From Pycnococcus provasolii (lineage: Eukaryota > Chlorophyta > Pseudoscourfieldiophyceae > Pseudoscourfieldiales > Pycnococcaceae), in NCBI GenBank assembly GCA_938743325.2, contig OW568869.1:1-64000 (forward strand): a stretch of 64,000 nucleotides of DNA. Reading direction: 5' to 3'. Position 1 is the stretch's first letter. Each line of letters opens with the position of its first letter. This document shows positions 4,248 to 16,532 of this stretch, piece after piece. The position numbers and the translations under genes are program-made. Below the pieces are notes generated by a model that was given only the letters and a program-made list of their open reading frames with translations, ran no database searches and had not been told where the DNA came from.

Positions 4248-4394
4248 CGAGTCAGCAGGTGTAACACTCATACATAATGACACCTTGTTCCATCCATGAC
4301 GAGTCGCATGTATGTGCGCTGCGAGGCTCAACTACTACTACCAAAGAATAAAGGTTGTTGTTTGGTTAGGGTACAATGTGCGCGTGAGATTTGC

Positions 4395-5441
4395 TTACAA
4401 GATGCGAACCTCAGTCATGAACCGCGTGCCGTTGAGCTCACCTAAGCGCGACGCATCGGTAGGCGCTTGGCCGTCGTCGTTCCAACCCCAGCACGCGACG
4501 CTTCCGTCGGCTCGCAGTGCCAACGAGTGATCATTGCCCGCGGCGATCGCTACGAAGTCGCCCTCCACGCCCGCGGGAGGCGCTTCGCCGAATTCGTTAA
4601 CACCCCAGCACGCGACGCTCCCGTCGGCTCGCAGTGCCAACGAGTGATCAAGGCCCGCGGCGACCGCTACGAAGTCGCCCTCCACACCAGCGGGAGGCGC
4701 TTGGCCGAAGGTGTTGCGTCCCCAGCACGCGACGCTCCCGTCGGCTCGCAGTGCCAACGAGTGTTCATTGCCCGCGGCGACCGCTACGAAGTCGCCCTCC
4801 ACGCCGGCGGGAGGCGCTTCGCCGAAGGTGTTGGATCCCCAACACGCGACGCTCCCGTCGGCTCGCAGTGCCAACGAGTGTTCAAGGCCCGCGGCGACCG
4901 CTACGAAGTCGCCCTCCACGCCGCCGGGAGGCGCCTGGTCGAAGGCGTTATCACCCCAGCACGCGACGCTCCCGTCGGCTCGCAATGCCAATGAGTGCCC
5001 GTAACCTGCGGCGACCGCTACAAAGTCGCCCTCCACGCCGGCGGGAGGCGCCTGGTCGAAGTGGTTCCAGCCCCAGCAAGCGACGCTCCCGTCGGCTCGC
5101 AATGCCAACGAGAATTGATTGCCCGCGGCGACCGCTACAAAGTCGCCCTCCACGCCGGCGGGAGGCGCTTGGCCCAAGTAGTTGGCACCCCAGCACGCGA
5201 CGCTCCCGTCGGCTCGCACTGCCAACGAGTGCCCGTTACCCGCACTAGTCATGGCGTTTGCCCTCGCGCGCCGAATGCGCCGATTGCGCCTTTCCTGAAC
5301 AGCGGCGAGTCGCCGCGGTCTGTGCACGGTGACGAGCCAGTCGAGCCATACGGCGATTGCGTTGTCTCTCAGGCTCAGAAGCAGGTGGTGGTTGGGTGAC
5401 GCTGACGCTGGTGGGACATTCGTGTCGGACACGGGCATCAT
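4395..5441 (-). CDS. RCC1-like repeat protein
   Basis: The product is about 348 residues, started at the paired ATGs near 5441. After an N-terminal stretch of about 65 residues come seven tandem units of 39 residues. Each contains a core like HSLALRADGSVACWGWN followed by QAPPAGVEGDFVAVAAG. The Gly-Ser-Val-x-x-Trp-Gly core is that of RCC1 / alpha-tubulin-suppressor (BLIP-II) blades, and seven units fit a closed seven-bladed propeller. The 117-bp DNA units are almost identical, differing mainly in the few residues after CWG, so the array has expanded or been homogenised recently. A TGTAA on the gene strand lies at the 3' end. The binding partner is unknown; nothing shows that it is a Ran exchange factor. 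Confidence 0.8.
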   Translation of the reverse strand: MMPVSDTNVPPASASPNHHLLLSLRDNAIAVWLDWLVTVHRPRRLAAVQERRNRRIRRARANAMTSAGNGHSLAVRADGSVACWGANYLGQAPPAGVEGDFVAVAAGNQFSLALRADGSVACWGWNHFDQAPPAGVEGDFVAVAAGYGHSLALRADGSVACWGDNAFDQAPPGGVEGDFVAVAAGLEHSLALRADGSVACWGSNTFGEAPPAGVEGDFVAVAAGNEHSLALRADGSVACWGRNTFGQAPPAGVEGDFVAVAAGLDHSLALRADGSVACWGVNEFGEAPPAGVEGDFVAIAAGNDHSLALRADGSVACWGWNDDGQAPTDASRLGELNGTRFMTEVRIL

Positions 5442-7523: not shown

Positions 7524-7667
7524 CTCGTTCAACTTTAAGAGAGGTTCTTCTTCTTCTTCTTCAGGCTCTTCTTTTGCGAGTTCGTCTTCTCCTTCCGAGT
7601 GTGAAGAAGAGTCGTCGTCGTCGTCGTCGTCGAAGATTGCGCGCTTATTTCGTGCAGCAGGTGCCAT
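7524..7667 (-). pseudogene. KRI1 5'-end fragment
   Basis: The ATG at 7667 starts 48 codons that match the N-terminus of the intact KRI1 at 14457 (APAARNKRAIFDDDD through PLLKLNE), apart from a small shift in the Glu run. Homology stops at the arm edge, after which the frame runs into copia DNA. It is therefore a promoter plus N-terminus copied by the duplication, with no way to make the rest of the protein. Confidence 0.9.
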
Positions 7668-7815
7668 ACGACTTGTGAGCTTTTGTGACGGAATGGCGGA
7701 TGGATGGCGGCGGGAACAAACACACGTGCGTCAAAAAGTACGTAAAGAATGAAGATCACGATGCGCAATGAGATGTCTGTCACATGGAAATTGAGGATAC
7801 CTGTTCAATCAGAAA

Positions 7816-7896
7816 CTATCTGACGGTCGTGGGTTCGAACCCCACAGGAGGTACCAATGCCTCCTTAGCTCAGTGGATAGAGCGTCAGTATCATTA
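7816..7896 (+). tRNA. Circularly permuted tRNA-Met(CAU) candidate, left copy
   Basis: The 3' half comes first. 7819-7823 is the 3' anticodon-stem strand TCTGA; 7824-7828 the variable loop CGGTC; 7829-7845 the T arm GTGGG-TTCGAAC-CCCAC; 7846-7852 the acceptor strand AGGAGGT; then A73 and an encoded CCA (7853-7856). After AT comes the 5' half: acceptor GCCTCCT (7859-7865), TA, D arm GCTC-AGTGGATA-GAGC, G26, then TCAGT and anticodon CAT at 7892-7894. Acceptor pairing is complete, with G1-U72. The TCAGT/TCTGA stem with a U-U pair and the GGTC variable loop match eukaryotic elongator tRNA-Met. B box therefore precedes A box. One oddity: position 37 reads as U whichever half supplies it, where A is expected. 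A bulge-helix-bulge fold was not resolved by eye. Confidence 0.8.
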
Positions 7897-7951
7897 TTAC
7901 TCGACAAAATAACGGACGAAACTTCGATTCACTTAGCTGCAAGGACCATTC

Positions 7952-7960
7952 TTTTTTTTT
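7952..7960 (+). terminator. T9 run, likely Pol III terminator for the tRNA
   Basis: Nine T residues lie about 56 bases after the anticodon of the permuted tRNA on its coding strand, which fits a pre-tRNA with a trailer. The same run is present in the right arm. Confidence 0.5.
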
Positions 7961-8387
7961 GCCCGAACGAAATAAGCGCTATAACTCACAACAATAAGCG
8001 ACGAACGGCATAAAAATAAAAAAAAATAAAAAGCGCTGCCGTGTACCTGCAGAGAATGAAAGGAAAAAGGCAAACAAGGCAAACGCGAACAGCGAACAGC
8101 GAAAGTTCTCCTTTGTGCGAGACGAGCACGCGCGTTTTGTTGCTGAGCAGGAAGAGCGCAACGCTGCCAACCGTGTGGCTGCCAAGTGCCAACCATGTAG
8201 CTGCCGCGGACGAACTTGGCGATGATGCCGCAACCGACGAGCTGCCCGACGACGACCAAGCTGAGCAGGGTTTTCACGAAGCAGTGGTGAACGTCATCGA
8301 GGACCACTGACATAGGACACACCGCTGCGCCGCCACGCACTGCGCCATCGCTGCCGAATGAAGAGCGTTGCGAATGGGCCGAATGGG

Positions 8388-8397
8388 AACCCCGAAT
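8388..8397. promoter_or_regulatory. GAACCCCGAA motif upstream of Notum-ABCG
   Basis: This 10-mer recurs upstream of several start codons in the window, in either orientation. Here it is 148 bases ahead of the ATG at 8546. A matching copy on the other strand lies in the right arm (13728-13737). Confidence 0.4.
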
Positions 8398-8545
8398 GGG
8401 CTGTGAGTAACACCGAATTGGATTCGTTAAAAACCGAATGGACCATCCTTAGGTGGTATGGATATTTTCCGCCCTTTCCAAATTTTCCGCCCTTGACACC
8501 TGGCGTTGACGTCAAGAGCCGCTCAATACCCGCACCCACGTGCCC

Positions 8546-11500
8546 ATGCCGGCGACATGCCGTTGGACCGCGCTCTTTCAGGTTGTTGTGCTCGTTCGGG
8601 GCGTCGTCACGGTGGCCGCGGCGCCCGTCTTGCAGCAGCATGAAGCGGCACCGTCTTCGTCTTCAAGCTTGTTCTGGGGGACCAACGAGCTTGCGAGGCA
8701 CGTGCTTGACGCACACGCACGCGCGAGGTGCAACGACGGCATGCCGGCGGCATACTACAGCGACATGGCGGCGAAAAACAGGCGCGGCGATTACAGCAAG
8801 GTTCTCGTGCTACTGCAAGGGGGAGGGCAGTGTTACAATCTTCGAAGCTGCACATCGCGTGTGGCAACCATGGCGCGTGCCAAGACAGGCGAAAACGGGT
8901 ACATGCAAGGGTACGACGAAACGAGACCGTCGAGTGTGGAGATGTGGCCAAAACGGCTAGCCGTCACCGGAGTGCTCAGCACTTCCAAGAGTGTTAATCC
9001 TGTATTCCACGACTGGCTGCACGTCTTCATACCGTACTGCAGCAGTGACATGCACACGGGACGAACCTGTGAGACGACGGCTTCCAAGACGCAGTCAACG
9101 CCGAGCGACACGGCCCTGCAGTCATACAACCTGCTCCACACAAACGCCACCGCGACGGGATTCTGCGGTGCTTACATTGTGGATGCCGTGCTTGATGAGT
9201 TGTACGGCACGCTGAAAGAGTTCAAGCAGGTTGTTCTCGCCGGTCTTAGTGCCGGAGGCGTGGGCGCAGTCTATCACACAAGTGCGTGGAGGAGACGACT
9301 TCCCGCAAGTGTCGACGTGAAGGTGCTTGCTGACAGTGCGTGGTTCCCAGCCGTGTCTAGACTAGAAAGCTACGGACAGCAAGATGGCTCGGGAGTCCAA
9401 GAGCAGCGCCATATCATCAGAGACGCGGCGAAGGCTTGGGGAACCTTGCCAGTAAATTCTGCGTGTGAAGCAGACGCCGTCGCGCGTGTTGGACGTGGCG
9501 ATTCCGCACGTGGCGCTTGCCTACTTTTGGAGTTTGCGCTTCCGCACCTAAATGTTCCCGCCTGGATCTTTCAGGGCTTGTACGACGCCTACTTTGCGCT
9601 TCCAGAGACGGGACGCCTGTCGAGCACCTTCCTCTCTGCTAACACGGTATTCTCGAATCTCAACTTCGTGCTATGGCTGCAGGAGTACGGAGAAATCTCC
9701 AGACATGCTCTCGAGCGCGCGCTTATCGATGCGCGCAGCGCGAATCACAGCATATTTGCACCCTCGTGTGTGCTGCACGGCACCATGTACCACAGCGCAC
9801 GCAGTCTCACACGAGAGCTCCCCGTCGATCGAGCAACAGGTTTGCCTGATTGGAAAGGACACGTGAACACACGCATTGGTAAAGCGCCAAGGCAGGTTGA
9901 TGTGCGCCGCTCAACCGCTGGGATGGACTTTGCTCATCTGGCGAAAGATCCCGCGCGTGTACTCAATGACATGCGCATCGGAAATACTTACGCACTTGAC
10001 CACCTCGCCGCATTCGTCAACGGTAAGGCGATGTCAATGACCTTGGACAATTGCTCCACAGTGAACTGCAATCCAACATGCGGTGCCGCGATGCGCCTGC
10101 CATACGAAACGGCGCCATCACTCGAAATTACCGCTGACTCGTCTACGTTTGAGGTGTTCGTTGCGATTCTGTCGATTGTGGTGATCGCCGGATCCTTCCT
10201 TTTGGACTTTTTGGCTAGCGTGCTCGGTCTCCTTCGAGTCAGGACGTGGACAAGAGTGTTTGAAGCGGCAACACCAGCACGGGAACATATGATGGGCCAA
10301 GCATCACAACCAGCTACAGGAGATGTCGAGCTGGGCGCTGTCATCCCTCGTAAAACCATAAGGGTACAAATGTCACTGCAGGTGCATGATGAGTCTGCAG
10401 ATCTCACGCAAATTCCATATCCGATTCAGCTCTTGCGCCTAACCTACGTGGTACCCGATCGAAAGGACAAAACAAAGGAAATCAGCCTCCTTAACGACGT
10501 CACGCTCGATCTAAGAGGGTCAGGTCTCGTCGCGGTGATGGGCGCGTCCGGCTGTGGTAAGAGCACTCTCATCGAGCTCATCTGTGGCCGCAGGAAAACA
10601 GGAACGATGCGTGGCGTCATGCTGCGTAATTCGCTTCCTTCGACGCCCGAGCGTGACGCAGCTCTCAGCGATACCATGGGTTATGTACCGCAATTTGAAT
10701 TCAGCAGTTACCCGAGTCTCACGGTGTACGAGACGCTGCTCTATGAGATGTGCTGCTCGGAACGCTTTACCAACCGAAATTTAGAATGGTGCAGCGAGCG
10801 CGTGTTTTCCACACTAAAGCTTGTCCAGCTAGAACAATTAGCAGGCACGCGCGTTGGCGGCGGCGGAGGTACTGGAGGGCTTTCGGGTGGCCAACGCCGA
10901 CGTCTTAGCGTTGCCAAGGAACTCTTGCACAGGCCAGTGCACCTCATTGCCGACGAGCCAACAAGTGGGCTGGACGCGAGCTCAACCATTCAGCTTGTTG
11001 ACAGTCTTTACAACGTGTCAACGCACGGCCACTCTCTGACGATGACGATACACCAACCGAGAGAGGAGGCGTTTGAGTCATTCACAACTCTGATAATCAT
11101 GACGAAGGGTCGTGTCGCCTACTGTGGCGGCGTGGTCCCCGCGATCAAGCATTTCAACGAGCTACTGTTGACGTACATCGGCGTTGGCGAGGGGGCAACC
11201 ATGAGCAATCCTGCAAACATGATCATCGATGTTGTCACCAATCTCGACAAGGAAATGCAGCGCGCCATCGTCGAAAAGAATATCCCGCATCAAAAGGAGC
11301 AGCAGAAGCTGGTGCTCGACGAATTTCTCAGTAACATCGCCCTGAGTGGAGACAATCTGGACGACGACGAGATTGCAGAAGCGCTTGAACCCCTTGCCCA
11401 GGAGTACACGCTCAACGGTTCTTATGACATCGCGCCACCGATGGAGCATGACGAGCACGACGACAAGGAAACGTTCCAAGATCGCTTAAAGGATGCCAAA

Positions 11501-13054
11501 TCCAGAATCATCCGCAACGCAGCCGAAGCGAAAAATTCTTTGCTTCACGGCAAATCATGGGCAAGAAAAAAGGCGCAGGAGACGGCGGAAAGGCTTCAGA
11601 ATACACTCGAAGCGATGCGGGCATTTCCGATGATGAGGAAGCTTAGACAAGATCGCGTCGTGATGGACATGATGCAAAGTCGTGCGATTTCTCGACAGCA
11701 CACGCAACTTATGAAGGCACGAAAGAATCGCACCTGGAGGGATGGTCTGGTCGCGTTCTCAAACATCAGTGCCACGGTTCATGGTCGGCTCTTCCATACT
11801 CTTCTTCACCAGGGCATTAGCGGCGAGGTGGTGTCGAGCTATATGGTCACCTTGACGGTCACACTCATCATTGGGATTACATTCTGGGACATTGACCGAG
11901 GTTCCGCCGGCTTGCTGAATGGGATGACTGCATACTTCTTGTTTCTTCTTTTTCCGCCGGTGTCCCGACTGATGCTGCTCGACAACACTGCTCGACTTCT
12001 CGCGAACCATCGCGTGAGCAGAGGCGCGGGGAATGAGGAGTCTGTGCACTTTGCCCTGAGCCTTAGCATATTTATGAATTGCACGAGTTGGATATTTTTA
12101 GCCATGGCGACTCTGCTGTTTCTGATTATGACGGGGCTTCCGACATCGGCGTGGCTGCAACTGGTGCTCGTGCTCGTGCTGTCGGAGTCTGTGATGGCTG
12201 CGATGCTGAGCGTCATCTCCGCGGTAATGCCAAATTCCATGAGGTTTGTCGTCGGCACATTTGCCGGTATGACGAATGGCTGGATGAGTGGCGCAGTCGT
12301 CCAGTACGGCGGGATGCACGCCATCTACCGTTGGATTGCGTGGATCACGCCGTCCAGCTACGCTCGTTGCCTTGGTATGATTGCGCTGTTCTCAGGTCGA
12401 CGGATTGACTGCGACGGAGATGGGAATGCTGCTCCTCCGGCCGTCGCAGGTGACGACGGCACGGCGCCACAAGCTGGTCTTGCCGGCTCTTTCCCCGTTC
12501 TACGCAATGCATGTCAGTACACGGATGCCTTTCAAATCTTGCAGCAGTTTAGCGCGAGCGATGCCCAGTTGGCTTGGGTGATTGATCACATGTTCGAAGC
12601 CCTCTTGATTTTACTCGTGCAGCTTCTCTTCTGGCGAGCCATGCTTATCGTCGTGCTCTACGCCGAGCAGATTGTCGGTGGAGGCTTGAAACGCGAGCCG
12701 TACTCCAAGCTCGTCTACGATCTTTTGCAAGCTTGCAGAGGCAATCGGCAGATTTCCGAAACGGCGGTGCGCGCGCAAGCTGCCCGTACGCTTCAAACGA
12801 AACTGTTTCTAAAGAAGTACCAAAAATTTCTCGAGGGTCATATTCCTGAAACGTATCGGGTGAAAACGCTCATGATGAGAGCTTTTCAGATCGAGGGCAT
12901 CGGCCTTGTTGATCTCGATATTTCGTCAACAGGACTCAAGGCGCTCATGCACGCGCGCTTTGTTGGCGCCTGCAACGACTATGCGATGGAAATTAAAAAA
13001 GCCGCCTCTGCCGCCTCTGCGGCGCTGAGCAGCAGCGTGTTCTCCTCCTCCTAG
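8546..13054 (+). CDS. Notum/pectin-acetylesterase hydrolase fused to ABCG half-transporter
   Basis: One uninterrupted frame of 1,502 residues. Residues 1-28 resemble a signal peptide. Residues about 55-520 are a Notum/PAE-family serine hydrolase: LLQGGGQCYN, FIPYCSSDMHTG, the nucleophile in GLSAGGVGA (about S235), LYDAYF (about D347) and VLHGTMYH (about H411). A membrane span follows at about 535-562. The ABCG nucleotide-binding domain comes next, with Walker A GASGCGKST (about 666), LSGGQRRRLS, Walker B LIADEPTSGLD and H-loop TIHQP, and then an ABC2 membrane domain with six or so spans. The order NBD before TMD is that of ABCG. The layout puts the esterase on the lumenal or external face. 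The 5' 423 bases lie in the inverted-repeat arm. Deacylation coupled to export of the product is inferred, not shown. Whether the fusion is made as one protein is untested. Confidence 0.9.
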   Translation: MPATCRWTALFQVVVLVRGVVTVAAAPVLQQHEAAPSSSSSLFWGTNELARHVLDAHARARCNDGMPAAYYSDMAAKNRRGDYSKVLVLLQGGGQCYNLRSCTSRVATMARAKTGENGYMQGYDETRPSSVEMWPKRLAVTGVLSTSKSVNPVFHDWLHVFIPYCSSDMHTGRTCETTASKTQSTPSDTALQSYNLLHTNATATGFCGAYIVDAVLDELYGTLKEFKQVVLAGLSAGGVGAVYHTSAWRRRLPASVDVKVLADSAWFPAVSRLESYGQQDGSGVQEQRHIIRDAAKAWGTLPVNSACEADAVARVGRGDSARGACLLLEFALPHLNVPAWIFQGLYDAYFALPETGRLSSTFLSANTVFSNLNFVLWLQEYGEISRHALERALIDARSANHSIFAPSCVLHGTMYHSARSLTRELPVDRATGLPDWKGHVNTRIGKAPRQVDVRRSTAGMDFAHLAKDPARVLNDMRIGNTYALDHLAAFVNGKAMSMTLDNCSTVNCNPTCGAAMRLPYETAPSLEITADSSTFEVFVAILSIVVIAGSFLLDFLASVLGLLRVRTWTRVFEAATPAREHMMGQASQPATGDVELGAVIPRKTIRVQMSLQVHDESADLTQIPYPIQLLRLTYVVPDRKDKTKEISLLNDVTLDLRGSGLVAVMGASGCGKSTLIELICGRRKTGTMRGVMLRNSLPSTPERDAALSDTMGYVPQFEFSSYPSLTVYETLLYEMCCSERFTNRNLEWCSERVFSTLKLVQLEQLAGTRVGGGGGTGGLSGGQRRRLSVAKELLHRPVHLIADEPTSGLDASSTIQLVDSLYNVSTHGHSLTMTIHQPREEAFESFTTLIIMTKGRVAYCGGVVPAIKHFNELLLTYIGVGEGATMSNPANMIIDVVTNLDKEMQRAIVEKNIPHQKEQQKLVLDEFLSNIALSGDNLDDDEIAEALEPLAQEYTLNGSYDIAPPMEHDEHDDKETFQDRLKDAKSRIIRNAAEAKNSLLHGKSWARKKAQETAERLQNTLEAMRAFPMMRKLRQDRVVMDMMQSRAISRQHTQLMKARKNRTWRDGLVAFSNISATVHGRLFHTLLHQGISGEVVSSYMVTLTVTLIIGITFWDIDRGSAGLLNGMTAYFLFLLFPPVSRLMLLDNTARLLANHRVSRGAGNEESVHFALSLSIFMNCTSWIFLAMATLLFLIMTGLPTSAWLQLVLVLVLSESVMAAMLSVISAVMPNSMRFVVGTFAGMTNGWMSGAVVQYGGMHAIYRWIAWITPSSYARCLGMIALFSGRRIDCDGDGNAAPPAVAGDDGTAPQAGLAGSFPVLRNACQYTDAFQILQQFSASDAQLAWVIDHMFEALLILLVQLLFWRAMLIVVLYAEQIVGGGLKREPYSKLVYDLLQACRGNRQISETAVRAQAARTLQTKLFLKKYQKFLEGHIPETYRVKTLMMRAFQIEGIGLVDLDISSTGLKALMHARFVGACNDYAMEIKKAASAASAALSSSVFSSS

Positions 13055-13155: not shown

Positions 13156-13578
13156 GGTGACGGCTAGCCGTTTTGGCCACATCTCCACACTCGACGGTCT
13201 CGTTTCGTCGTACCCTTGCATGTACCCGTTTTCGCCTGTCTTGGCACGCGCCATGGTTGCCACACGCGACGTGCTTGACGCACACGCACGCGCGAGGTGC
13301 AACGACGGCATGCCGGCGGCATACTACAGCGACATGGCGGCGAAAAACAGGCGCGGCGATTACAGCAAGGTTCTCGTGCTACTGCAAGGGGGAGGGCAGT
13401 GTTACAATCTTCGAAGCTGCACGTGCCTCGCAAGCTCGTTGGTCCCCCAGAACAAGCTTGAAGACGAAGACGGTGCCGCTTCATGCTGCTGCAAGACGGG
13501 CGCCGCGGCCACCGTGACGACGCCCCGAACGAGCACAACAACCTGAAAGAGCGCGGTCCAACGGCATGTCGCCGGCAT
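13156..13578 (-). pseudogene. Notum-ABCG 5'-end fragment, internally rearranged
   Basis: The ATG at 13578 reproduces the signal peptide and the first 50 or so residues of the Notum domain. The frame then enters the flipped 146-bp block and stops near 13402. Homology to the parent resumes beyond the block and ends at 13156, the arm boundary. It cannot make an enzyme. Confidence 0.9.
13274..13419. repeat. 146-bp microinversion inside the right arm
   Basis: This block matches 8705-8850 in the same orientation, whereas the rest of the arm is inverted. It is bounded by CGACGTG on the left and CACGTGCC on the right; in the left arm the equivalent edges are CACGTG and CACATCG. The inward-facing ACGTG words could have served as the exchange sites. 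The left-arm orientation keeps the Notum reading frame and its GGGQCYN motif, so the right-arm orientation is the derived one. Confidence 0.92.
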
Positions 13579-14227
13579 GGGCACGTGGGTGCGGGTATTG
13601 AGCGGCTCTTGACGTCAACGCCAGGTGTCAAGGGCGGAAAATTTGGAAAGGGCGGAAAATATCCATACCACCTAAGGATGGTCCATTCGGTTTTTAACGA
13701 ATCCAATTCGGTGTTACTCACAGCCCATTCGGGGTTCCCATTCGGCCCATTCGCAACGCTCTTCATTCGGCAGCGATGGCGCAGTGCGTGGCGGCGCAGC
13801 GGTGTGTCCTATGTCAGTGGTCCTCGATGACGTTCACCACTGCTTCGTGAAAACCCTGCTCAGCTTGGTCGTCGTCGGGCAGCTCGTCGGTTGCGGCATC
13901 ATCGCCAAGTTCGTCCGCGGCAGCTACATGGTTGGCACTTGGCAGCCACACGGTTGGCAGCGTTGCGCTCTTCCTGCTCAGCAACAAAACGCGCGTGCTC
14001 GTCTCGCACAAAGGAGAACTTTCGCTGTTCGCTGTTCGCGTTTGCCTTGTTTGCCTTTTTCCTTTCATTCTCTGCAGGTACACGGCAGCGCTTTTTATTT
14101 TTTTTTATTTTTATGCCGTTCGTCGCTTATTGTTGTGAGTTATAGCGCTTATTTCGTTCGGGCAAAAAAAAAGAATGGTCCTTGCAGCTAAGTGAATCGA
14201 AGTTTCGTCCGTTATTTTGTCGAGTAA

Positions 14228-14308
14228 TAATGATACTGACGCTCTATCCACTGAGCTAAGGAGGCATTGGTACCTCCTGTGGGGTTCGAACCCACGACCG
14301 TCAGATAG
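14228..14308 (-). tRNA. Circularly permuted tRNA-Met(CAU) candidate, right copy
   Basis: The sequence and permuted order match 7816-7896 in the opposite orientation. The 3' half occupies about 14307-14268 and the 5' half 14265-14230, with the anticodon at 14232-14230. It lies about 150 bases upstream of KRI1 and transcribes away from it. A run of nine A (T on the tRNA strand) at about 14164-14172 is the matching terminator. Confidence 0.8.
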
Positions 14309-14456
14309 TTTCTGATTGAACAGGTATCCTCAATTTCCATGTGACAGACATCTCATTGCGCATCGTGATCTTCATTCTTTACGTACTTTTTGACGCACGT
14401 GTGTTTGTTCCCGCCGCCATCCATCCGCCATTCCGTCACAAAAGCTCACAAGTCGT

Positions 14457-16532
14457 ATGGCACCTGCTGCACGAAATAAGCGCGCAATCTTCGACGACGA
14501 CGACGACGACGACTCTTCTTCACACTCGGAAGGAGAAGACGAACTCGCAAAAGAAGAAGAACCTGAAGAAGAAGAAGAACCTCTCTTAAAGTTGAACGAG
14601 TCGTACGCGAAGCGCTTCGAGCACAATGCCGAGCGTGAGGAGCTGCAGCGCCTCGAGGCAAAGTACCCGGACATGGCGAGTGGTGCGTCACGCAAGCGTC
14701 GCGTGGAAAAGGAGCGAAAACGTGACGACGACGATGCCGCCTCAGATTCGTCGGAGGAGGAGGAGGAGGATGACGGCGTCGTGAATCCAAAGCAGCAGGT
14801 GAAGTTCCTTGAGGCGCTTGTGAAGCTTCGCAAGCGTGACCCCACCATCTACGAGCAGGACGCGACGCTTTTCGAAGACGACGACGACAACGAAGACGAC
14901 GACGAAAATGGCCGAAAAGAAAAAAAGAAATCGCTACGTCTTCGCGAAATGTTGGCGCGAGACGCACAAAAAACAGCTGAAGTCGGAGTCTCCTCCGACT
15001 CCGACTCTGAAAATGAAAATGATGAAGCCACACGACGAACATACCACGACGAGCAGGAGGCGCTTCGTGCGTCATTCAAGAGCGCTGCTGCGGATGATGA
15101 TGCCAACACTCAACTTCTCGAGCTCAAGAAGTCCAAGCAAAAAGATGCTGCTCCTTCATCATCCTACCCGTCTCAGCTGATGGACACGTACTACGGCAAG
15201 TCTGCAGAGAAGCTTGACGCCGACGAGCGCTTTCTGCGTGACTACATCCTAAATCGTGGATGGATGGAAAAGGATGACGACGACGACGACGACGACGACG
15301 GTTCCGACTCCTCAGACGTCTCGCACTCCTCCGACGTCTCCTCCGACTTTGACGATCACGAAGCCTTTGAGAGGCAGTATAACTTCCGCTACGAGGAGGG
15401 ACCGGAGGCGCACACCATCACATCGCATCCACGCCACGTCGAAGGAAGCCTTCGTGCAGAGGACACGCGGAGAAAGGATGCTCGTGCACGCAAGAAGGAC
15501 TCTAAGGAGAACCAGGAGCGTGAGCGCCTCGCACTTTTGCAGAAACGTGACCTGAAGAGGCGCGTCAACCAGGTGAAGGTGGTCGCGGGTGGCATCGAAG
15601 ACAAGGACAAGGTTGCCAAGGCTAGCCTCAAGGCGATGCTCGTCGACGACGGCGCGTTCAACCCAAAAGCTCACGACGACATGATGGCACGCCTGTTTGA
15701 CGACGACTACTACGGTGCGGAGGATGAAGACGAAGACGGCATGGGTGCTCTGGAGGCGTTGGATGACGACGACGACGAGGAGGAGGAGGAGTACGACGAG
15801 GAGGAGGAGGAGGCGAAGAACGATGATGTGGGACCCTCGCCTTCAGCAGAAGAACCTCCAACAGAACCGTCAAGACGCCAGAGAAAGAAAAATGCATCCC
15901 GACGTAAGCAGAAAAACAGACAGCAGCCGCATAACGACGATCCGCTGCTGCGCAGTGTGTTGGCTGTCGACGACCCATCGCAAGCAAACACGTCCTCCTC
16001 CTTTGTTCGATTTCCCTACAAAGATGTCATTGCGCAGGACTATGCCTGCACAGCGGTGGATGTGCTGACGATGTCCGACAAGGAGCTGAACCAGGTGGTT
16101 TCGCTGAAAAAGCTCGTGCCATACGCGGATGACGACATGAAAGTTGTGAAACGCGCAAAGAAAATCAAAAAGCATCTCGATAAGCTTGCATCGTATCGCG
16201 ACGAGAATGACGACATCGACGACGACAACGACGACGACGGCGAAGATGTGGTTCGAAAAAAGCGTACTTCCAAAAAAGAACGCCGACGCAAGGCTCGCGG
16301 TGACAGTATTCCAGAAGTGGAGAAGAAGAAGAAGAGCGAGCCTTCGTCGTCGAAGGAACCGAAGAAGCCTTCGTCGTCAAAGGAATCAAAGAAGAAGGAA
16401 TCGCGCAGCTTGAAGAAGGAGGAGCAGAAAAAACGCAAGGCGGAGGATGCTGCCCGGAAGGATCGCCTTTCAGCATTCGAGGTGCCAACACTGAAGAAGA
16501 GAAGGCAGGAGCCGTTGTTGAAGCTCTTCTAG
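14457..16532 (+). CDS. KRI1: KRI1-like ribosome biogenesis factor
   Basis: The product is 691 residues, highly charged, with long Asp/Glu runs. Family motifs are seen in order: GKSAEKLDADERFLRDYILN followed by GWMEKD; the RYEEGP to RRKDARARKKDSKE block; the KAMLVDDGAFNPKAHDDMM region; and near the C-terminus FVRFPYKDVIAQDY followed by SDKELNQVVSLKKLVPY, which is the Kri1 C-terminal domain. The tail is Lys/Glu-rich and probably nucleolar-targeting. Kri1 works with Krr1 in 40S subunit assembly. Its first 144 coding bases lie in the right inverted-repeat arm, so its promoter and N-terminus are duplicated at 7524-8968. TTC/GAA repeats encode most of the acidic runs. Confidence 0.92.
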   Translation: MAPAARNKRAIFDDDDDDDSSSHSEGEDELAKEEEPEEEEEPLLKLNESYAKRFEHNAEREELQRLEAKYPDMASGASRKRRVEKERKRDDDDAASDSSEEEEEDDGVVNPKQQVKFLEALVKLRKRDPTIYEQDATLFEDDDDNEDDDENGRKEKKKSLRLREMLARDAQKTAEVGVSSDSDSENENDEATRRTYHDEQEALRASFKSAAADDDANTQLLELKKSKQKDAAPSSSYPSQLMDTYYGKSAEKLDADERFLRDYILNRGWMEKDDDDDDDDDGSDSSDVSHSSDVSSDFDDHEAFERQYNFRYEEGPEAHTITSHPRHVEGSLRAEDTRRKDARARKKDSKENQERERLALLQKRDLKRRVNQVKVVAGGIEDKDKVAKASLKAMLVDDGAFNPKAHDDMMARLFDDDYYGAEDEDEDGMGALEALDDDDDEEEEEYDEEEEEAKNDDVGPSPSAEEPPTEPSRRQRKKNASRRKQKNRQQPHNDDPLLRSVLAVDDPSQANTSSSFVRFPYKDVIAQDYACTAVDVLTMSDKELNQVVSLKKLVPYADDDMKVVKRAKKIKKHLDKLASYRDENDDIDDDNDDDGEDVVRKKRTSKKERRRKARGDSIPEVEKKKKSEPSSSKEPKKPSSSKESKKKESRSLKKEEQKKRKAEDAARKDRLSAFEVPTLKKRRQEPLLKLF

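Follow-up and report, generated by a model that had tools for sequence, protein, structure and literature searches.

A circularly permuted tRNA gene of Pycnococcus provasolii, very probably a tRNA-Arg(UCG) split by an anticodon-stem intron

The DNA analysed here, hereafter named the window, is the first 64 kb (64,000 nucleotides) of contig C9 of the Pycnococcus provasolii genome. Searches described below as genome-wide covered 32.33 Mb in 46 contigs, of which C45 (24,277 bp) and C46 (80,243 bp) are organellar. For strain CCAP190/2, a size of 32.2 Mb and 44 chromosomes are given, with a mitochondrial genome of 24.3 kb and a plastid genome of 80.2 kb (PMC11130579). Close to the beginning of the window lies a tRNA gene whose two halves stand in reversed order, and a second, identical copy is found on the opposite strand. 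The parts of this locus are as follows.

7567..8705, no strand: left arm of an inverted repeat, carrying copy 1; its partner is 13419-14557 (1,139 nt, 100% identity)
7793..7806, +: element GAGGATACCTGTTC, putatively promoter-like, corresponding to the pattern GRGGATACCKGTTC
7807..7817, +: leader, from the element to position 38; bases -4 to -6 pair with positions 33-35 when the gene is read as tRNA-Arg
7818..7853, +: 3' half (positions 38-73, placed by covariance model match and cloverleaf), made of the 3' strand of the anticodon stem, variable loop CGGTC, T arm, 3' strand of the acceptor stem and A73
7854..7858, +: spacer CCAAT between A73 and G1, to be removed, includes CCA (read from the sequence)
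7859..7888, +: first exon of the 5' half (positions 1-30), made of the acceptor 5' strand, the D arm and TCAG of the anticodon stem
7889..7920, +: predicted 32-nt intron at 30/31, with H helix CGTC/GACG; contains the CAT that had been taken as anticodon
7921..7927, +: second exon of the 5' half (positions 31-37, ACTTCGA), anticodon TCG, giving stem TCAGA/TCTGA and loop CTTCGAA
7928..7951, +: 24-nt trailer, removed at the 37/38 junction (read from the sequence)
7952..7960, +: run of nine T followed by GC, likely RNA polymerase III terminator, by likeness to the T runs behind other tRNA loci
13419..14557, no strand: right arm of the inverted repeat, carrying copy 2, 100% identical to the left arm
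14164..14331, -: copy 2, 100% identical over 181 nt, model score 65.3 bits, element present (14331-14318); 3' half 14306-14271, spacer 14270-14266, first exon 14265-14236, intron 14235-14204, second exon 14203-14197, T run 14172-14164

Elsewhere in the window, TTAGGG-type telomere repeats at 1-290 pass into a variant unit bearing ATTG (ctaattgtaacc). A tandem repeat with a period of 117 nt occupies 4340-5341, where the repeat search returned a 300-nt unit seven times, in register. On the forward strand, 8540-13054 is a single frame of 1,504 amino acids in which a pectinacetylesterase domain is joined to ABC transporter domains.

The locus is a circularly permuted tRNA gene. The 3' half comes first, followed by the CCAAT spacer and by the 5' half, which starts with G1 at 7859, so that the B box lies 5' of the A box. 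Pairing is complete in the acceptor stem (7/7, one pair being G1-U72), the D stem (4/4) and the T stem (5/5). The last base of the 5' half is A37 and the first base of the 3' half is A38, as in the 37/38 class (type II), and the T9 run is found downstream, none within the spacer. To search for such genes, we used a covariance model of the cloverleaf opened at 37/38, built from 15 human and yeast tRNAs permuted in a script, the window sequence being excluded from the training set. On both strands of the window, this model gave two matches at E values up to 10, at 7818-7895 (+) and 14306-14229 (-), each with 65.3 bits and an E value of 5e-16 (the E-values of the tool are rough). ARAGORN and Rfam at gathering thresholds reported no tRNA in the window, as expected because the gene is permuted. 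The permuted order of parts, the fully paired acceptor, D and T stems and the inverted order of the boxes had all been claimed by a previous reading made from the sequence only (the sequence-only reading), and they hold. The search for permuted tRNAs that it had proposed matched the locus, together with the copy within the inverted repeat, which was absent from that reading. Permutation at 37/38 is thus supported, and the genome contains further such genes (see below).

The amino acid identity first attributed to the gene is not supported. The sequence-only reading had ended the gene at 7896 with the anticodon CAT, as a tRNA-Met(CAU) with an unusual U at position 37. Joined in this way, the anticodon loop is AT CAT TA, with U37, and T31 faces T39, leaving 4/5 pairs in the anticodon stem. 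If 7889-7920 are removed instead, positions 31-37 become ACTTCGA, 31:39 becomes an A-T pair, and the loop reads C32 U33 UCG A37 A38. Both anomalies thus vanish once 7889-7920 are read as an intron, into which the odd U falls together with the CAT. The gene would then extend past 7896, since its 5' half most likely continues beyond the intron to 7927. Presented with the joined sequences, ARAGORN scored tRNA-Arg(tcg) at 125.1 and Met(cat) at 112.7. Positions 8-26, the variable loop CGGTC and the T arm GTGGGTTCGAACCCCAC are identical to those of a permuted tRNA-Arg(CCT) gene found elsewhere in the genome (L082). A20, an identity base of arginine tRNAs, is present in both genes. G1-U72 and A73 are common to all three Arg genes found; a Leu-like locus, L084, likewise has G1-U72. 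Taken together, these sequence features make it very probable that the locus is a permuted nuclear gene for tRNA-Arg(UCG), in two identical copies, with its junction at 37/38 and a 32-nt anticodon-stem intron at 30/31. In the mature tRNA, this reading predicts the stretch GTCAGACTTCGAATCTGA; the contrary stretch is GTCAGTATCATTATCTGA.

Other ways of joining the locus were tried and discarded. In all the single-junction joins of the two halves that were written out by hand, U37 stays. A Met anticodon followed by A37 could be obtained with a 10-nt intron in the 3' half (AATC, then AGAAACTATC, then TGACGG), which gives CAT AA TCTGA, at the price of a 36/37 junction and with no helix support. The trailer loop GCTGCAA, taken as bearing a Cys anticodon, has just 2/4 H pairs, and the stem is not repaired by taking GTATCA...CTTAG of the window gene as a GT-AG intron.

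The geometry of the predicted intron was then compared with that of bulge-helix-bulge motifs. Exon bases 7883-7886 (CGTC, positions 25-28) face intron bases 7915-7918 (GACG, -6 to -3) with 4/4 Watson-Crick pairs, and this central 4-bp helix lies two nucleotides from each cut, as in non-canonical bulge-helix-bulge introns. Given the composition of the intron, the probability of GACG at that place is about 0.0012. The 63 nt from 7889 up to the T run were also put through 20,000 dinucleotide shuffles, a post hoc test run with the hit already seen. An acceptable loop alone was obtained in 91.7% of cases and a loop with an Arg anticodon in 23.1%. A loop with a 4/4 H helix was obtained in 1.3%, and all three together in 0.1%. 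The bulge-helix-bulge fold that the sequence-only reading had proposed to look for is possible as far as the helix of the intron is concerned; the lowest-energy fold differs, since free folding of the intron region gave -6.3 kcal/mol, versus -3.4 kcal/mol with H forced, and the bulge-helix-bulge was not chosen. At the 37/38 termini, positions 32-35 form 3/4 H pairs with the leader when the gene is read as Arg, versus 1/4 when it is read as Met. The missing pair is that of base 32 with leader base -3, which is C opposite A in the window gene and is paired in 7/7 other permuted genes tabulated (a table that omits L033, L053, L084 and L113); these seven are also joined at 37/38. Both this unpaired base and the free fold of the intron region count against the reading as Arg.

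Three other accounts of the locus deserve consideration. An elongator tRNA-Met(CAU), with its junction at 37/38, U37 and no further intron, is the one that ARAGORN also accepts with the lower of the two scores, and the 5' half does resemble the human elongator Met gene (GCCTCCTTAGC...GCGTCAGT.TCAT). The sequence-only reading had named an intact elongator Met gene elsewhere as part of what would speak against it. With one 28-base genome pattern (the 5' half with CTCATA, up to 3 mismatches), matches were limited to the two copies of the window gene, so that this point stands as far as a single pattern goes, and the locus stays without a better Met rival. Decoding of ATG is expected to need A37, however, and an elongator tRNA-Met(CAU) should have an intact anticodon stem, whereas here U37, T31 opposite T39 and the poor leader pairing (1/4) are found. 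Moreover, the gene shares its D loop AGTGGATA, variable loop and T arm with permuted Arg(CCT). We therefore regard a Met gene as unlikely.

We consider it just as unlikely that the locus is a relic, i.e. a permuted gene born from a duplication near the chromosome end and no longer expressed or processed. Its position 8 kb from the telomere-repeat end, inside an inverted repeat, and the unpaired base 32 would fit such a history, but the acceptor, D, T and (read as Arg) anticodon stems are intact, the copies are identical, and both the element at 7793 and the T9GC terminator have been kept. A gene with two outputs, giving a CAU-bearing RNA when the 30/31 intron is retained and tRNA-Arg(UCG) when it is removed, might be imagined from the fact that each join forms a foldable cloverleaf accepted by ARAGORN. 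The CAU form would nevertheless carry a broken stem pair and U37, and we know of no precedent for a single tRNA transcript with a dual CAU/Arg output; this account is highly improbable.

The locus suggests the following expression pathway. RNA polymerase III transcription would begin near 7793-7817 and end at the T run (7952-7960). The intron would be excised at the bulge-helix-bulge by the tRNA-splicing endonuclease, which would also cut the termini behind 37 and ahead of 38. A ligase would then join 30 to 31 and 37 to 38, yielding a circular RNA. RNase P, with tRNase Z or exonucleases, would open this circle at the CCAAT spacer, and the product would decode CGA and CGG as arginine. At the level of gene presence, the genome contains two tRNA_int_endo genes and one RtcB gene, the latter a candidate for the ligase. 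One match to the TFIIIC B-block was found (E value 1e-6), a weaker finding, as the same search was positive in 8 of 14 prokaryote control genomes. The pattern GRGGATACCKGTTC has 76 sites in the genome, versus 1 for its reversed control. It lies 5' of the two window copies, both Ser genes, Leu(TAG), Arg(CCT), Arg(TCT), L053, L084 and L113, and is absent from the stretches examined around Trp, Tyr, Asn, Leu(TAA), L033 and His. When four further sites were sampled blind, a tRNA arm was present within some 150 nt of one of them (L113), so that a restriction of this pattern to tRNA genes is unsupported. A run of 9 or 10 T followed by G was found behind all 11 tRNA loci checked, the next letters being GC in 10 of them. 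No TATA was found in 7768-7817, the 50 nt before position 38.

The CCA encoded in the spacer had been pointed out as an oddity by the sequence-only reading. It is indeed there, but as a meaningful feature it fades on comparison: among 11 genes (Trp, Tyr and nine permuted ones, with hand-entered letters), position 73 is directly followed by CCA in the window gene and in 0/10 others, and at least one CCA among 11 genes is expected at random with a chance of 16%. The encoded CCA is probably due to chance, and no function needs to be invoked.

We searched for other permuted tRNA genes in the genome. The T-arm pattern GGTTCRAWYCC has 101 genome sites, versus 69 for its reversed control. The permuted model was run on 47 of the 50 loci L032-L081 (L038, L058 and L061 omitted) and gave 10 matches at E values up to 10. 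Eight of these did not exceed an E value of 1.1e-5; they comprise both window copies, Asn(GTT), two Ser(TGA) genes, Leu(TAG), Leu(TAA) and L033. L053 was matched in part (0.0029), and the last match stood at 2.2. Among ten other loci, five matched, the best being Arg(CCT) with 64.0 bits; Arg(TCT) (L083) reached 38.4 bits. A permuted His(GTG) gene with an insert in its D loop was found by eye and was not reported by the model. In Ser and Leu genes that have a long variable arm, the model sets the anticodon stem in the wrong place, and this was corrected by eye before submission to ARAGORN; for the His join, the 7-nt D-loop insert was removed by hand. ARAGORN called 9 of the 10 joined sequences, namely the window gene as Arg(TCG) and in its rival form Met(CAT), Arg(CCT), Arg(TCT), Asn, Ser, Leu(TAG), Leu(TAA) and His. 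The one not called was L113, putatively Ile(UAU), which has G37, a D loop of 12 nt and one T-stem mismatch. Beyond the window gene, eight permuted nuclear genes of seven tRNA kinds were thus resolved, counting the second Ser copy.

Over the genome, the Rfam tRNA model gave at least 27 matches with E values up to 0.001 (63 of 587 candidates scored), of which 24 are on the two organelle contigs. At least three are nuclear, one Tyr and two Trp genes, and each of these is interrupted by an intron, while permuted genes are frequent among the loci that were read. A BLAST-like genome search with 21 tRNA sequences placed end to end gave no match, an outcome that carries no weight with that tool. L053, L033, L051 and L084-L087 resemble portions of additional tRNA genes. 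In L051 and L087, a tRNA 3' half is soon followed by a T run, and no 5' half was seen in the part read; these may be genes with long introns or split genes. In the acceptor stem, single U x U oppositions are present at 6:67 in Arg(CCT) and at 5:68 in Arg(TCT). Near-identical inverted duplications, with arms 1.6 to 21 kb apart, were observed at 7567-8968/13156-14557 in the window and at C3:1025215/1032128, C7:455184/456792 and C2:244293/265484. They carry the window gene, Trp, the L051 arm and one non-tRNA locus; because of the latter, inverted duplication is not a habit of tRNA genes alone.

Two of these loci contain introns of another kind. In the permuted gene L113, with L114 (C7:375427-375670), a 72-nt GTAAGT...AACAG insert separates acceptor positions 6 and 7. 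In the permuted Arg(TCT) gene (L083/L090, C37:417510-418000), a 75-nt GTAAGT...CAG intron lies in the anticodon stem; like the window gene, this gene requires removal of an anticodon-stem intron, of a different kind. When each insert is taken out exactly, from GT to AG, the acceptor stem on C7 regains 7/7 pairs and the anticodon stem on C37 regains 5/5. The two introns are 83% identical over 77 aligned columns and share the 22-mer CACTAACAACCTAACACACTAA, which has 122 genome sites with up to 3 mismatches, versus 0 for the control. Exact sites number 22 and one-mismatch sites 22 (44 in all, including the two tRNA sites); some of the three-mismatch sites are CCCTAACA simple repeat. GT-AG ends, a branch-like CTAAC and the exact repair of stems suggest spliceosomal introners. 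The 30/31 intron of the window gene is not of this GT-AG introner kind. We see about even chances that two systems at once interrupt nuclear tRNA genes in this alga, namely permutation with bulge-helix-bulge introns, and mobile, spliceosome-type introners inserted in RNA polymerase III genes. If this is true, the spliceosome would be required for making some tRNAs, and introner-like introns would bring two splicing systems together on a single small RNA. No report of introners in tRNA genes was found in titles and abstracts of the open-licence literature.

Permuted nuclear tRNA genes of Pycnococcus have no report that we found in the open-licence literature, and the word 'tRNA' is absent from the main text of the article on P. 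provasolii CCAP190/2 (PMC11130579). The present genes extend permutation, with a chromosome-level genome, to a green lineage for which no report was found. In practical terms, a permuted gene read without its hidden intron can yield the wrong amino acid, and the translation set of this genome is unreadable from routine annotation, since the standard tRNA model gave just three nuclear genes (a lower bound). A permuted, intron-split gene of the sort found in the window is already known; what is more unusual is the state of the tRNA genes across the genome, together with the GT-AG introns.

The list of hosts in the sequence-only reading (Cyanidioschyzon, Ostreococcus, Micromonas and a nucleomorph) was incomplete, as permuted tRNA genes are also published for Auxenochlorella (PMC12636532) and for the archaeon Thermofilum pendens (PMC3978253, Table 1). 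Auxenochlorella is a green alga too, of another lineage than Pycnococcus, and there also the tRNAscan-SE set was incomplete and permuted genes were found afterwards (PMC12636532, PMC12633428). The window gene resembles the nuclear type II (37/38) genes of Ostreococcus, Micromonas, Cyanidioschyzon merolae and the Bigelowiella nucleomorph, with their succession of 3' half, spacer, 5' half and T run (PMC3978253). Its 5-nt spacer is as short as those of two Bigelowiella nucleomorph genes (PMC3978253, Table 1). It differs by the CCA in this spacer, as CCA is not encoded in C. merolae, and by the absence of TATA from the 50 nt ahead of position 38, unlike most C. merolae permuted genes, which have a TATA-like sequence within 50 bp upstream, although this is not a defining feature (PMC3978253). 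Arg(UCG) is absent from the 34-gene table of 2014, in which Arg(CCT) is present as type IV and Arg(TCT) as type II (PMC3978253). The same Table 1 lists the combination of permutation and anticodon-stem intron once, for the Ser(TGA) gene of O. lucimarinus: it is likewise permuted at 37/38, and its intron is 56 bp long at 27/28, whereas that of the window Arg gene would be 32 nt long at 30/31 (PMC3978253). The 30/31 site and the central 4-bp exon-intron helix are those of archaeal-type non-canonical introns (found at 29/30, 30/31 and other sites), but here the intron would reside in a eukaryotic nuclear genome and be combined with permutation (PMC4090602).
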